Assembly: GCF_004087915.1 (NCBI RefSeq)
Contig: NZ_CP035108.1
Span: 1,488,001-1,552,000 of the forward strand
DNA length: 64,000 bases
DNA from: Geovibrio thiophilus
Lineage (GTDB): Bacteria; Chrysiogenota; Deferribacteres; Deferribacterales; Geovibrionaceae
Direction of reading: 5' to 3'
The position numbers and the translations under genes were made by a program. Every line of letters starts with the position of its first letter. Within the stretch, counting starts at the first letter, position 1. Below are positions 39,372-46,475 of this stretch, one piece after another. The notes below the pieces were generated by a model that was not told the origin of the DNA, did no database searches, and worked only from the letters and a program-made list of their open reading frames with translations.

Positions 39372-39411
39372 TTAACAAAGGTTGATTAAATTTAACGAGC
39401 AAAGGTGGGAG

Positions 39412-40005
39412 ATGGCAGAGCAAGTCATTAAAATCGGAGAGCGAGTCAGAAAAATCAGGAACCAGAGAGGTCTTACCCTACAGGATGTCGCCTCATACAC
39501 AGGTTTCTCCAAGGCTCTTATCTCTCAGATAGAAAACAATGTTGTCACTCCTCCCATAAATACTCTCTCAAAAATTGCAAAGGTTCTGAACGTAAAAATG
39601 ACTTATTTCTTTGAAGAGGAAATAGATTATAACGATTATCATATTGTCAGAAGGAACGACCGCAAACTTATCTTCCGTGAGGGTGTAAAGCACGGCTATA
39701 TTTACGAGGAGCTGGCTAAGGTGCACGGCTTTGAAAACCTTGAGATATACATGGTCACCATCAAGGAATCGGGCAGCGATAAAAAACTCTTCAACCACGA
39801 AGGCTATGAATATATATATCTGAAAAGAGGCAAGATTAATCTCTATCTGAACAATGAAGTAATTGAAGTCGAAGAAGGTGATTCCATCGCCTTTAATTCA
39901 CGCATCCCCCATTACCTTGAGTGCCCTGAAGGCGAAGCCAAGGTTATCGGCATTCTGCTCAAAACCGAAGGGCTGAAGGAACATCTCGAAAAACAGGCAA
40001 AATAA
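39412..40005 (+). CDS. XRE-family transcriptional regulator with cupin domain
   Basis: The start is ATG 39412, preceded by AAAGGTGGGAG. The 197 residues have an N-terminal XRE helix-turn-helix (IGERVRKIRNQRGLTLQDVASYTGFSKALISQIENN) and a C-terminal cupin_2 barrel (FNHEGYEYIYLKRGKINLYLNNE, then GDSIAFNSRIPHYLEC). This layout is typical of small-molecule-sensing repressors of the PuuR/SutR type; the ligand is unknown. It probably regulates itself through the palindrome in its promoter. It is followed by a repeat array, so no operon partner. Confidence 0.92.
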   Translation: MAEQVIKIGERVRKIRNQRGLTLQDVASYTGFSKALISQIENNVVTPPINTLSKIAKVLNVKMTYFFEEEIDYNDYHIVRRNDRKLIFREGVKHGYIYEELAKVHGFENLEIYMVTIKESGSDKKLFNHEGYEYIYLKRGKINLYLNNEVIEVEEGDSIAFNSRIPHYLECPEGEAKVIGILLKTEGLKEHLEKQAK

Positions 40006-40020
40006 ACCATCTGACTTGAT

Positions 40021-40389
40021 AACATCGAACAACACATCCTGTCTGTTTGGTGTGCACGCTCGCGCCGAACTTGGTTCGGCTTCGCTTCGCACGGCGCAGC
40101 AATCTGTCTTGCCGCTCCAACTACATCCTGTGTTTTTTCCGCACACGCTCACGCCGAACTTGGTTCGGCTTCGCTTCGCACGGCGCAGCATCTGTCCTGC
40201 CGCTCCAAAAACTACATCCTGTGTTTTTTCCGCACACGCTCGCGCCGAACTTGGTTCGGCTTCGCTTCGCACGGCGCAGCATCTGTCCTGCCGCTCCAAA
40301 AACTACATCCTGTGTTTTTTCCGCACACGCTCGCGCCGAACTTGGTTCGGCTTCGCTTCGCACGGCGCAGTCCCGTCCGTGGGACTGTT
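40021..40389 (-). repeat. Four tandem modular hairpin repeats (period 89-91) after the XRE-cupin gene
   Basis: Units begin with ACATCCTGT-type motifs at 40034, 40123, 40214 and 40305. Read on the minus strand each unit has the linker CGCCGTGCGAAGCGAA, the 7-bp hairpin GCCGAAC-CAA-GTTCGGC, the linker GCGAGCGTGTGC (one copy GTGAGCGTGTGC) and, in units 2-4, a stem AAAAAC/GTTTTT with loop ACAGGATGTA. Spacers between units fold as GCGGC/GCTGC. The outermost hairpin (40369-40388) is CAGTCCC-ACGGAC-GGGACTG. Reading frames through the array are low-complexity artefacts. Confidence 0.92.
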
Positions 40390-40500
40390 TACGTCAGTAT
40401 ATTTAGAGACTGCCGCGTCGCTTCGCTCCTCGCAGTGACATAAACTGCTGTCATTGCGAACCCTGAAAGGGTGAAGCAATCACTCATCTGATAATATCAA
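40390..40500. repeat. GTCATTGCGA-type interspersed repeat
   Basis: Contains CTCCTCGCAGTGAC, CTGTCATTGCGAACCCTG and GGGTGAAGCAATCA, the arrangement of the widespread bacterial repeat whose translations read CHCEE...AIS. A partial second copy with the same GAGACTGCC...CTCCTCGCAGTGAC block recurs at 40567-40602. It is a different family from the modular hairpins but interleaved with them. Confidence 0.7.
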
Positions 40501-41061: not shown

Positions 41062-42504
41062 ATGGCTCGCATTTTATCCGTAGACCCTGTTTCCAGAATA
41101 GAGGGACACCTTAAAATAGAAACAGAGATTGATTCAGGAGTTGTCACACGCGCACGTGTGGCGGGGAACATGTACAGAGGTTTTGAACGGATGCTTCTGG
41201 GCAGGCATCCCGTGGATTCCGCCAGAATTGCCCAGCGCATTTGCGGTGTATGCCACGAGGTTCACGGGGTTTCCTCTGTGATGGCTCTTGAAGAGATCTA
41301 TAAGGTTACTCCGCCCGAAAACGGACTTGTTCTCAGGGATATGATCTTAGGGCTTCATATAGTAACGGATCATCTGCTCCATTTTTATAATCTCTGTCTT
41401 CCTGATTACGCCGATTTATCGGTCGCCGCAACCTACAGCGGCAGTGACACCCGCCTGAAAGAGATAGCAGGATGGATAAGAAACTCCGGTACGGGTTTCA
41501 TAGGCGGAGCGGCAGAAGGCGATTATATAAAGGATAAGGACGCTGTTTACAGGCTGACGCTCCATTATTTCGAGGCGCTTAAGATACGCAGTGAGGCTGC
41601 CTCGGGGCTTGCTCTTCTCGGTGGTAAGGTTCCGTTTATCCATGCGCTTCTTCCGGGCGGCATAACCACGGAAATAACCGCCGATACACTGATGAAATAC
41701 TATCATGTCCTTGAGAAAACGGCTGATTTCGTAAACAACTCCTTTCTGCCGGACGCTCTGGAGATTGCCCGCCGCTATCCTCAGTACTTTAAAATAGGCG
41801 AGACGTACAACGCATTCTATGCTCACTCATCCTTCAAAAACGCGAAAGGCGCCAGCCTCTTTAACGCAGGTGTGATAATAAACGGTGAGAGGAAAAACTT
41901 CGATTACTCAAAGGTGAAGGAGCTTCTTAACGCCTCATTCTATGATAATTCCGGCAAACCAGATGAAAATAAAAAAGGAGCGTACAGTTGGATAAAGGCT
42001 CCGAGATATGAAGGTTTTCCCCTTGAGGTGGGTCCGGTGGCAAGGTTTGCTGTCAATAATGACGCAGGCTTCAAATCACTTCTCGGGAGGTTCGGCAGCT
42101 CAGGCGTAACCTCCTCAACTATGTCCAGAATACTCGCCAGAGCCTACGAATCTGTAAGACTCTGCAATTATCTCTTTGAGCGCTCAGAGGATTTCAGGCT
42201 GGATGAACCCACAATCCGTCCTGTAGATCTTCAGGCTCCGATAACTGGTCAGGGTGTAGGCTTTTCCGTTGCCGCCAGAGGGGCACTTGTGCACCACATA
42301 ACGGCGGACAAAGGCAAGGTTACGGATTATAAAATGATTGTTCCCTCCACATGGAACTTCGGTCCCGCCGCTGACGGCAGGGCTGGAGTGGTCGAAAAAG
42401 CTATAACAGGAACTCCGGTACGCTTCGGCGGCGAGGGCGGTTCCGTAGAAGTGGGCAGAGTTGTGCGCAGTTTCGACCCCTGCACAGCCTGCTCTGTTCA
42501 TTAA
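41062..42504 (+). CDS. [NiFe] hydrogenase large subunit without C-terminal extension (probable H2 sensor)
   Basis: A 480-residue catalytic subunit. The nickel ligands are Cys61 and Cys64 (RICGVCHEVH) and Cys474 and Cys477 (DPCTACSVH). The conserved N-terminal RIEGHLKIE is present. The protein ends exactly at His480; the peptide that a HyaD/HybD-type protease normally removes after this His is absent. Regulatory hydrogenases (HoxC, HupV) share this trait, whereas most respiratory enzymes do not. H2 oxidation chemistry should be intact. It starts an operon with the small subunit (9-base gap) and a chemoreceptor. No hyp maturation genes are in the window. Confidence 0.95.
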   Translation: MARILSVDPVSRIEGHLKIETEIDSGVVTRARVAGNMYRGFERMLLGRHPVDSARIAQRICGVCHEVHGVSSVMALEEIYKVTPPENGLVLRDMILGLHIVTDHLLHFYNLCLPDYADLSVAATYSGSDTRLKEIAGWIRNSGTGFIGGAAEGDYIKDKDAVYRLTLHYFEALKIRSEAASGLALLGGKVPFIHALLPGGITTEITADTLMKYYHVLEKTADFVNNSFLPDALEIARRYPQYFKIGETYNAFYAHSSFKNAKGASLFNAGVIINGERKNFDYSKVKELLNASFYDNSGKPDENKKGAYSWIKAPRYEGFPLEVGPVARFAVNNDAGFKSLLGRFGSSGVTSSTMSRILARAYESVRLCNYLFERSEDFRLDEPTIRPVDLQAPITGQGVGFSVAARGALVHHITADKGKVTDYKMIVPSTWNFGPAADGRAGVVEKAITGTPVRFGGEGGSVEVGRVVRSFDPCTACSVH

Positions 42505-42513
42505 GGTGCTTTG

Positions 42514-43473
42514 ATGTTAAGCAGAAGAGACTTTCTTAAAAGATGCAGAGATATATCAGTCATGGCTTTCGGTGCGGACATATTCGGTGCCGACATTGCC
42601 GAAGGATTCATGAAGATAGCCGCTTCAAACAGACCTCTCGTATCCTTCATACAGGGGCAGAGCTGCACCGGCTGCTCAATCTCGCTCACATACGGCAACG
42701 AGACAAACTTCATAGATTTCATAATGAAGCTGATAAGGCTTCAGGTTCACCCGAATCTCTCCTTCAGTCAGGGTGAAAGCTATCTGAAAATGCTGGATTC
42801 AGTGTCGGAAAAGGGCGGTCATGTTCTTGTCGTGGAAGGCAGTATTCCGGTTAAGATGAAAAAGGCCTGCATGCTGGGTGAGCACACTCTTTATGACGAG
42901 CTCAAAAAGCATATGGAAAAAGCATCGGCAATTATTGCCTGCGGCTCCTGCTCCTGCTTCGGCGGAATACCCGCCTCCGGCATGAATGAAACCGGCGCCG
43001 TTTCCGTTGAGAAATATATGAGCATGGCGGGCATAAAAAAGCCCGTTGTCAAGATTCCCGGCTGCCCCATCCAGCCCGACAGGTTCATGGGCACTGTCGC
43101 CTATCTGATCGCCACAGGCAAGCTTCCCGCTATGAAGGACGGCATACCCACACAGTATTTCGGTGAGCTGATTCACAACAACTGCACCAGATTCCAGTAT
43201 TTTTCGCAGGATATTTACCTTGACGACTTCAACAAGGACAAGCACGCCTGCCTGCTTAAAAAAGGGTGCAGAGGAACCATCACCAAGGCGGACTGCCCCA
43301 CAAGGCGCTGGAACGGCAGTGTTAATGTCTGTGTGGAGAGCAATGCTCCCTGTATAGGCTGCGTTAACGAAAAATGGCCTTTTACATCTGATATATACAT
43401 TGAAGCCAAGAATGTTGAGGATGTTCCGTGGAGCGACTTTAAAAAGTACTCCGAGAAGAGGGGACGCAAATGA
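42514..43473 (+). CDS. [NiFe] hydrogenase small subunit with Tat signal
   Basis: The start is ATG 42514, with AAGGTG five bases upstream. The N-terminus has a twin-arginine motif SRRDFLK (Arg4-Arg5), so the folded heterodimer should be exported to the periplasm. The proximal cluster uses Cys51 and Cys54 (SCTGCS) plus cysteines in GSCSCFGG and PGCPIQPD. The distal cluster has HNNC as its His/Cys pair. Later cysteines (KKGCRG, ADCP, APCIGC) complete the distal and medial clusters. The 319 residues end without a membrane helix, so there is no self-anchor and no cytochrome b gene follows. Confidence 0.95.
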
Positions 43474-45398
43474 GCATGAAAAGTTTAATATATTATCTGG
43501 ACGGGCTTTCCCTTAAGGTTAAGATGGCAATAGCCTCCTCGCTTCTGGTGGCGATCACTGTTTTCGGAGTTCTCGTGCTGGACAGTATAAGGCTCCACAG
43601 AGTCGAAACAGCGCTGACAAGCTACATGAACCAGCTTAAGGATATGATCTTCATGTCCACTTACGATTCTCTCAAGAAAGGTAACATGCACGTTTTCAAA
43701 AATATGATTGCTGAAATCGGCAAGTATCACGATGTCGCCGAGTTTTCCCTTGTTCATACGGACGGACTTGTGGCTTACTCTTCAAACCCTGAGAAAGTGG
43801 GACAGAAGGTTGAGCATGAGTTCAACCCCGAGCATGAGGAAAGCTTCACCGACAACGGCAACATGGTTTATCATTTTCCGGTTAAAACCATAGGCTACTG
43901 CCTGCGCTGCCATACAGACTGGCGGGAGGACACTGTAAACTCATACTATCTCGTAAAGCTTAAACGGGATGCTCTGATCAGTGTTCAGCGCATGTCATAT
44001 ATATCCGACATTTTCGTCCTTATCTGCGGTACGTTACTGGTTTTCATAATATATTTCCTTGTGAATAAACTCGTTATCAGAAATGTGGACAAACTCCAGA
44101 ACACGATCGTATGCGCTTCGGAAAACTTGGATCTCAGCCTCAAATCCGACATCTCCTCCCGCGATGAAATGGGTGAAATAGCCGCCAGATACAACAAATT
44201 CATGGAGATCATCGGGCGTGACATAACCGGAACCTTCAAATCCATATCAAATGTTATGGAGCAGGTGCTTCCGCTCTCCCTTTCCGCTATGCGGATTAAG
44301 AAGATGAATGACGAGACTCTCCGCCTCGCGGGGGAAGTGGCTGCCGCCAGTGAGGAGGTCAGCGCCTCTGTGAGAGATTCTGCCGAGAATATACAGAATT
44401 CATCCACAAAAGCGGATGAAACACTGCGTCTTTCCGAAGACGGAGGCATCGCAATGCAGGAAACGACTAAGCTTGCCTCAAACGTCAGCGGACTTGTGAA
44501 TACACTTTCCGAGGAGATGCAGGAACTGCTGAAATCCTCCGTTGAGGTCGGCGAAATAGTCAGAGTGATCACGGATATTACAGAGCAGACAAACCTTCTT
44601 GCGCTGAATGCGGCGATAGAGGCGGCAAGGGCAGGGGAAGCGGGCAGAGGCTTTGCCGTGGTTGCGGACGAGGTGCGCAAGCTGGCTGAAAAAACACATA
44701 ATTCGGCGGCTGATATAACAAATGTTGTAAGCTCCATGCAGACAAAGGTTCAGGCAGCGGTGAACAACGCCGGAAAAGCCCTTGAGATAGTAAATCTTCA
44801 GGGGAGCAAGGTTGTTACCGCCAATGAGAAATTCATGGACATCAAGGCTTCCGTGGATGAGCTTAACGGGCTCCTTATGCACATAGCGTCCGCAGTTCAG
44901 CAGCAGTCGGCGGCTACTTCGCAGATAGCTGTTAATATCGAAGATGTGGCGAAAATGAGCGAAATGAACTCCGGCGGCATCGACAAGATGGTTAAAGGTG
45001 TCGAAATCGTGGTTCAGCAGCTTGACGAATCCGAATCAGAGCTTAAAAAGTTTACTCTGGACGCTAAAATCATTCCATTCATCCACGCCAAGGCGAGCCA
45101 TGTTCTTATGATGAAATCTGTTTATCACGGATATATGTACAACGGACGTGTGGAGATAAAATCCTTTGAGGACTGCGACTTTACAAAATTCGTCAGAAAT
45201 GAGGGAGAGAAGGAATTCGGGCGTGATCCCGATTTTGCCGCTCTGGACGCTCCGCACAGGAGCATTCACTCGCTTGCGCAAAAGATAAAACATATGCTTG
45301 AGAAGAGGGAAAACCCCGCGAACGAGCTTGAAGCTCTTCAGTCGGAGATAGAAAACTTCATAGGCAAGCTGAATATTATGATAGAGAAGTATTCATGA
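43470..45398 (+). CDS. Methyl-accepting chemotaxis protein with periplasmic heme-c domain and CZB domain
   Basis: A 642-residue transducer starting in an ATGA overlap with the hydrogenase small subunit. TM1 is about residues 17-39. A periplasmic domain of about 140 residues carries a heme-c motif CLRCH (144-148), and TM2 is about 180-203. A HAMP-like region precedes the canonical signalling hairpin tip ([22 protein letters not shown]), which contacts CheA/CheW. From about residue 545 a CZB zinc domain follows, with His in AKASHVLMM, Cys in FEDCDF and two His in PHRSIHS. Heme-c chemoreceptors (DcrA, Geobacter MCPs) are known. Coupling to a hydrogenase points to H2 sensing (inference). Confidence 0.95.
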
Positions 45399-45428: not shown

Positions 45429-46475
45429 TCAGCTTCTGTAGAACACCGCAAGCTCATCCAGCCTTGAGAGGCAGCGCTTCAGCTTCTTTTCAAAGGGTGA
45501 TTCCAGCATAGCCGCCGAGAACAGATCTTTAAGCTCATATTCAGATTTTATGAAAAGCTTCGTGTTGTAGTAATAACAGTGATCTATAAGGTGGTTGAAG
45601 CGCAGGGCGCTGTTCAGCTCCTTAAACGGCAGAAGTCCGTCAATAAAAATCGCCTCACAGTTTGAGGGAATCATGAAATACCTGAAAGGGTGATTGTCCT
45701 CAAGGATCTTCATGAGTTTGTCAAAATCCGTGCGGCTTTTCGCCTTGGATTCGCAAATACAGTTTGTAAAAGCGTCAAAGAATGATTCCGTGGATACGTT
45801 CCGTTTCCATGCCTTATGCTTTTTGCGGTAGTCCTCACCCTCAACCACGACGGTTTTGAAGGACGAGGCTATCACGCCCATCTCCTTCTCGAACCTGTCC
45901 ACCTGAAAGCGGAGCTTTCCAAGCTCGGTGGGAAGTGTGTTTGATGTGGTGACTATCAGCGTATCTTTATTAACTTCCTTAAAAAAACGCACCATTATCA
46001 GACACATTGCCGGGTCATCCAGCTCAAACTCATCCACAAGAAGAAGATCAAGCTTGGAAAATTCCTCAATACATTTCTCAACGCCGAGGTAATGGAAAAA
46101 GTAGTTCATCTCGGAAAAGCTCATGAAAGCTTTTTTCATGTCCGTCATGTTATATGTGGCGCTGAGAAGGTGAGTCTTGCCGATTCCGTAGCTGCCGTCT
46201 ATATAGATGTTGAGAGGTTTCTGAAACACAGGCTTGGGCTTGAAGAACGAAAATCCTTTTTTGACAGGCTTTTCATACTTTTTTTTCATGATCTCGGCTG
46301 TTTCTTTCAGCAGATTTTTGATATAGTGCTGAGAGGGGTAATTTTCATCCGGTATGTAATTGTCAAAGGTGCATCCGGAGAACTTCGGGTGCGGCTTCAG
46401 ATTGGCGAAACATTCCTCTATGGATACATTGAAGCTTAGTTTGCTTATGTCGATGTAGTTTCCGGCGCTGGTCAA
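45429..46475 (-). CDS. AFG1/ZapE-like ATPase
   Basis: A 348-residue P-loop ATPase of the AFG1 family. Walker A is GSYGIGKTH, Walker B is LLLVDEFELDDPA, sensor-like IVTTSNTLPTELG follows, and FIDGLLPFKELNSALRFNHLID is the characteristic C-terminal part. Proteobacterial ZapE binds FtsZ during cytokinesis; mitochondrial AFG1 aids membrane-protein quality control. The start is TTG 46475, preceded by GGGGGA on the minus strand. It converges with the chemoreceptor gene 30 bases away and is not part of that operon. Confidence 0.82.
   Translation of the reverse strand: MTSAGNYIDISKLSFNVSIEECFANLKPHPKFSGCTFDNYIPDENYPSQHYIKNLLKETAEIMKKKYEKPVKKGFSFFKPKPVFQKPLNIYIDGSYGIGKTHLLSATYNMTDMKKAFMSFSEMNYFFHYLGVEKCIEEFSKLDLLLVDEFELDDPAMCLIMVRFFKEVNKDTLIVTTSNTLPTELGKLRFQVDRFEKEMGVIASSFKTVVVEGEDYRKKHKAWKRNVSTESFFDAFTNCICESKAKSRTDFDKLMKILEDNHPFRYFMIPSNCEAIFIDGLLPFKELNSALRFNHLIDHCYYYNTKLFIKSEYELKDLFSAAMLESPFEKKLKRCLSRLDELAVFYRS

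Follow-up and report, generated by a model that had tools for sequence, protein, structure and literature searches.

An exported [NiFe] hydrogenase paired with a heme-c receptor in Geovibrio thiophilus: a candidate periplasmic H2 sensor

What task does a hydrogenase serve when the gene that follows it encodes a chemoreceptor? The question is raised by a 64,000-nucleotide stretch of the Geovibrio thiophilus chromosome (NZ_CP035108.1, positions 1,488,001 to 1,552,000; hereafter the window), in which the genes for the large and small subunits of a [NiFe] hydrogenase are followed by one for a methyl-accepting chemotaxis protein (MCP) with a c-type heme motif. Judging from sequence comparison, the three genes probably form a dedicated periplasmic sensor of H2, or of the H2/H+ redox state, with an interchangeable output. 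The order large subunit, small subunit, sensor recurs in 44 distinct loci of two phyla, the Deferribacterota and the Desulfuromonas/Desulfobacterota group, and the sensor goes with large subunits that lack a C-terminal maturation extension.

The three-gene unit and its relatives

Features of the unit in the window:
41062..42504, + strand: [NiFe]-hydrogenase large subunit, 480 amino acids; PF00374, E 6.5e-95; ends at the last active-site motif
41236..41253, + strand: L1 motif RICGVC, followed by HEVHG; Ni ligands C61 and C64
42475..42501, + strand: L2 motif DPCTACSVH (C474, C477), with the stop codon directly 3'
42514..43473, + strand: hydrogenase small subunit, 319 amino acids; PF01058 and PF14720; twin-arginine translocation (Tat) motif; ligands for three [4Fe-4S] clusters
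42520..42540, + strand: twin-arginine motif SRRDFLK of the small subunit; R4 and R5 invariant
43470..45398, + strand: MCP with periplasmic c-heme sensor, 642 amino acids; PF00015, 141 bits
43686..43688, + strand: Met73 of the K/R-G-N/E/Q-M motif of the MCP, a candidate distal heme ligand
43899..43913, + strand: CLRCH, c-type heme attachment (C144, C147, H148), MCP residues 144-148
44475..44957, + strand: MCP signalling domain, PF00015
45099..45287, + strand: CZB-like zinc-binding domain at the MCP C-terminus, 27.9 bits against a cut-off of 29.4

An earlier note on this DNA, made from the letters of the window, had described the genes as a tightly packed operon, and this description stands: the large-subunit stop codon ends at 42504, with a gap of 9 nucleotides before the small-subunit ATG at 42514, and the small-subunit TGA overlaps the MCP ATG as ATGA at 43470. 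Its placement of CLRCH in the periplasm was also borne out, since the motif, the single CxxCH in the periplasmic part of the MCP, lies between two predicted membrane helices. Neither a protease gene nor one for cytochrome b, which the note had named as a sign against its reading if present in the same operon, was found within the three-gene unit. No C-terminal membrane anchor was seen in the small subunit, and the gene after the MCP (45429-46475) lies on the opposite strand.

Among 51 Deferribacterota genomes, 13 carry large subunits of this lineage (17 in all, 43-100% identical). All 17 loci have the order large subunit, small subunit, sensor protein, and in each the N-terminal part of the third gene product is homologous to the sensor of the window MCP; 27 further loci were found elsewhere. 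A scan of 84,980 species located members in Desulfuromonas, in Thermosulfurimonas/Thermodesulfobacteriaceae and in Desulfobulbus-like metagenome-assembled genomes (MAGs). The identities of lineage members (at least 41%) are clearly separated from those of ordinary hydrogenases (at most 36%). Deeper members turned up in 395 genomes of the Desulfuromonas phylum. Samples of Nitrospirota (296 genomes) and Bacillota (398) contained no member at the thresholds used, and the best large subunits there were all extended. Relatives at 44 loci thus keep the sensor partner, a neighbourhood that the earlier note had proposed to check; together with a reverse search from the sensor, described below, this rules out a respiratory hydrogenase standing beside an MCP by chance.

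Two observations concern particular members. At L067 5533-6954 (genome G018), a DDE transposase gene separates the small subunit, which differs in its last residues, from the MCP, and the unit there may be broken. The CZB-like domain is common to the Denitrovibrio acetiphilus orthologue and an orphan sensor MCP (L210), and could possibly provide a second input to the MCP.

The missing extension and the sensor partner

All four cysteines of the active site are present in the large subunit. Across 14 aligned large subunits, C61, C64, H65, E66, V67, H68 and G69 are invariant and all active-site ligands are kept; position C474 is encoded by a Cys codon, with no selenocysteine in L2. Every member of the lineage stops exactly at DPCxxCxxH and has no C-terminal maturation extension. 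Groups 2b and 2d, whose hydrogenases sense H2, and some group 4 enzymes likewise have no such extension (PMC7294309). The PF00374 match marks the window enzyme as [NiFe], not as the [FeFe] H-cluster type. Its best sequence matches lie among the periplasmic enzymes of group 1, and it is on these matches that the label group-1-like rests. Membership of group 2b was rejected on account of the export signal (the invariant RR of the small subunit) and the group-1-like sequence.

In the small subunit, the ligands of the iron-sulfur clusters are kept throughout the lineage except at position 54, and the residue that would be the fourth ligand to the medial cluster is Cys instead of Pro in 44/44 members, against 23/64 extended relatives. 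The large-subunit gene comes first in lineage loci, the opposite of most ordinary loci examined. Position 54, a ligand of the proximal cluster, is Asp or Glu in 8/46 extension-less small subunits, all from deep loci.

The sensor and the missing extension go together almost strictly. A signalling partner with CxxCH accompanies extension-less large subunits in 34/36 distinct loci (L079 and L100 are one locus and were counted once), and the two partnerless cases lie on contigs that end 351 and 469 nucleotides downstream. Large subunits with an extension of 7-31 residues had such a partner in 0/68 loci, some of which also have short flanks. Fisher's test on these counts gives 8e-28 (uncorrected for kinship), and the extension-less set forms one side of a single tree branch (SH-aLRT 94). 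Genomes G402 and G384 hold both types, the extended one without a sensor and the extension-less one with it. Seven loci with Thermodesulfovibrio-type large subunits (L146, L150, L153, L155, L157, L158 and L161), which have an extension of 7-9 residues, carry a histidine kinase without CxxCH about 1 kb downstream, possibly another hydrogenase-kinase association.

The pairing also holds when the search starts from the sensor. A search of the 395 Desulfuromonas-phylum genomes with the sensor profile gave 26 matches, of which 21 lay inside a triad, and the ten large subunits newly met in this way were all without extension (10/10). Of the matches outside triads, one (L271) is a sensor standing alone and the other four are weak, with CheA-like genes beside some of them. 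In the Deferribacterota, 17/19 strong matches were inside a hydrogenase unit. Of the other two, one is in a 64% complete MAG and one adjoins a pyruvate kinase gene; the hydrogenase genes beside the latter were probably lost, because the second Denitrovibrio copy of the unit also adjoins pyruvate kinase.

The heme domain and its outputs

The sensor domain diverges widely around a fixed core. Among 28 aligned sensors, which fall to 16% identity with that of the window, C144, C147, H148, W151, L68, G71, M73, F76, L94 and S104 are invariant, and the Met motif and CxxCH hold also in loci outside this alignment. Structures were predicted as single chains. The AlphaFold model of the MCP is confident (predicted local distance difference test score, pLDDT, 87.7) and places a Cache-like sheet between a long membrane helix at the N-terminus and a second one; the CxxCH helix (144-147) lies just ahead of the last strand, between strands 131-139 and 156-165. 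The same position of CxxCH is found in sCache_heme domains (PMC12889525). A Foldseek search with the sensor model gave WalK Cache domains as the best matches and the Geobacter heme sensors GSU0935/GSU0582 as weak ones, and a sequence search of the Protein Data Bank with the sensor profile returned nothing useful. We also considered the sensor as a plain member of the Pfam family Tll0287, and rejected this because the PF11845 profile match was not significant (best E 0.046, 9/28 members).

The potential of H2 is about -414 mV at pH 7. Among heme-c MCP sensors, GSU0582 and GSU0935 have heme potentials of -156 mV and -251 mV, and the heme of GSU0935 is of the His/Met type, with Met as second ligand (PMC8396549). 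Given these values, reduction of the heme by H2 would be downhill. M73 may be the corresponding ligand in the window sensor.

By Pfam, the output attached to the sensor is an MCP in most loci, PAS-HisKA-HATPase in Desulfuromonas loci L091-L093 and PAS-GGDEF-EAL in L077 (Flexistipes) and L078. The second Denitrovibrio copy (L079 3682-6784) has a PAS-GGDEF output and a separate EAL gene; its counterpart in another genome (L209 6628-9306) is one fused orphan gene with no hydrogenase. Two output changes are needed on the large-subunit tree. Flagellin is encoded in 24/25 genomes with the MCP output and in 0/5 genomes that have only the histidine kinase or GGDEF form, a suggestive match. Denitrovibrio acetiphilus, with the MCP form, is recorded as motile, and Flexistipes as non-motile (PMC3236037).

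The earlier note had taken the MCP to be the partner to which the hydrogenase is dedicated. The partner is an MCP in the window, but across the family it is one in only part of the loci, and the unit is better described as a hydrogenase plus a heme sensor with variable output. The sensory role itself is strengthened by the lack of an extension, the swappable outputs and the match of output to flagella.

The genome of the window, a closed chromosome of 2,997,552 bases, could support such a role. The receptor has two membrane helices, a periplasmic domain and an MCPsignal domain, and the genome encodes CheA, flagellin and HypD and has cytochrome c assembly genes. About 30 MCPs are present, of which 3 have CxxCH. 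Two other [NiFe] hydrogenases both have a 15-residue extension, and one of them is accompanied by genes for Hyb-type iron-sulfur and NrfD membrane proteins and for a HycI protease. Apart from these, a CcsA-like cytochrome c assembly match (G000:C1:514030-514587) spans one or two in-frame TAG codons, with counterparts in G015, G018, G019, G024 and G027 (six related genomes in all), and may be an alignment extending beyond a stop. A 91-nucleotide repeat in four tandem copies (40030-40391) lies between the gene for an HTH-cupin regulator (39382-40005) and that for the large subunit.

Competing readings and known systems

Within the sensor reading, we favor, with less assurance than the reading itself, a direct route in which the exported hydrogenase would pass electrons from H2 straight into the receptor heme, giving a modular periplasmic sensor and true H2-taxis. 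The hydrogenase subunits would mature without a protease step and leave the cytoplasm together, using the small subunit's Tat signal. H2 would be oxidised at the NiFe site, and the electrons would run through the three [4Fe-4S] clusters to the c-heme of the partner's periplasmic Cache-like domain. The change in heme redox and ligand state (probably His/Met) would then shift the membrane helices. Where the output is an MCP, as in the window organism, the signal would bias CheA and the flagellar motor; relatives would use this front end to drive a histidine kinase or a GGDEF-EAL protein. The physical complex, the electron transfer, the heme ligation, and the H2 response and its direction are all what we infer from the genes.

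Another potential explanation is energy taxis as a by-product, where a respiratory uptake hydrogenase feeds soluble periplasmic c-type cytochromes and the receptor heme reads that pool. The closest solved relatives of the enzyme are indeed periplasmic respiratory [NiFeSe]/[NiFe] hydrogenases, and heme-c MCPs such as DcrA have been described as redox and O2 sensors (PMC8396549). However, the absence of the maturation extension from every member, the near-strict pairing, the swapping of outputs while the hydrogenase stays and the presence of separate respiratory-type hydrogenases make this unlikely. Less probable still is contact sensing in the manner of HoxBC-HoxJ, with an H2-induced change in hydrogenase shape relayed by protein contact and a heme that is structural or serves a second signal. 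Although known [NiFe] regulatory hydrogenases do signal by way of an attached kinase and are likewise extension-less (PMC7294309; PMC6978683), the CxxCH is invariant in all sensors despite domain identity down to 16%, which points to an electron-accepting role.

The heme could also bind NO, CO or O2, so that the receptor steers cells away from gases poisoning the neighboring hydrogenase. The sCache_heme family has NO-sensor properties (PMC12889525), and the window sensor shows weak profile and fold similarity to it. We hold this to be very improbable: it leaves unexplained why the partner is restricted to extension-less hydrogenases and absent from ordinary ones in the same genomes, and the invariant Met would fill the sixth heme site. 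Some points do weigh against a dedicated H2 sensor. A few sensors occur without a hydrogenase; the sensor fold is like that of Cache domains which bind gases or ligands; NO-sensor behavior has been reported for related heme Cache domains in fusions with signalling modules (PMC12889525); and the output-flagellin match rests on two independent swaps, too few pairs for significance.

Among described systems, group 2b (HoxBC/HupUV with HoxJ) is like the window unit in coupling an H2-sensor role to a signalling protein and in having a large subunit without extension. To our knowledge, the [NiFe] sensory hydrogenases known so far, those of group 2b, are cytoplasmic; they act on a PAS histidine kinase, whereas the window unit has a Tat motif and group-1-like sequence, and its partner is a receptor in the membrane whose c-heme is periplasmic. 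The periplasmic hydrogenases of group 1, the [NiFeSe] enzyme HysAB among them, are closest in sequence and share Tat export and three iron-sulfur clusters. Unlike them, the window unit has Cys for Sec, no extension and the large-subunit gene first, and its operon is without a cytochrome or quinone-reducing partner and without a protease gene, HycI being at another hydrogenase. The heme sensors GSU0582/GSU0935, DcrA and sCache_heme (DUF3365/Tll0287) share with the window sensor a periplasmic Cache/PAS-like domain, a CxxCH helix before the last strand and an MCP output, but the literature found does not describe an enzyme dedicated to any of them.

HydDB lists a kinase-linked [NiFe] group 2b, a putative diguanylate cyclase-linked [NiFe] group 2c and [FeFe] groups C1, C2 and C3, with C2 as putatively chemotactic and group 1a as periplasmic respiratory (PMC5037454). 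The claim of the earlier note that no unit joining a hydrogenase to a chemoreceptor had been described was too strong in view of the C2 and 2c entries. What these have in common with the window unit is the notion that H2 sensing is linked to an MCP or to cyclic di-GMP. However, [FeFe] C2 is a different metal enzyme, of the PAS-bearing group C (PMC13104023), and neither C2 nor 2c is given as exported and heme-coupled in the HydDB table (PMC5037454), whereas the window unit is predicted to be both. A literature search that covered few subscription journals found no exported heme-coupled [NiFe] sensor and no [NiFe] hydrogenase-chemoreceptor system; an MCP entry in a hydrogenase-neighborhood table (PMC12727194) is not tied to this lineage. 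Sensory hydrogenases as such have already been proposed, and what is new here is a candidate of the [NiFe], group-1-like, exported and heme-coupled type.

If this reading is true, the unit would represent a new way to sense H2 outside the cell and a molecular candidate for H2-taxis. Extension-less group-1-like genes should then not be counted as evidence of H2 respiration, and sensors of this kind could be recognised simply from sequence, by the missing extension.

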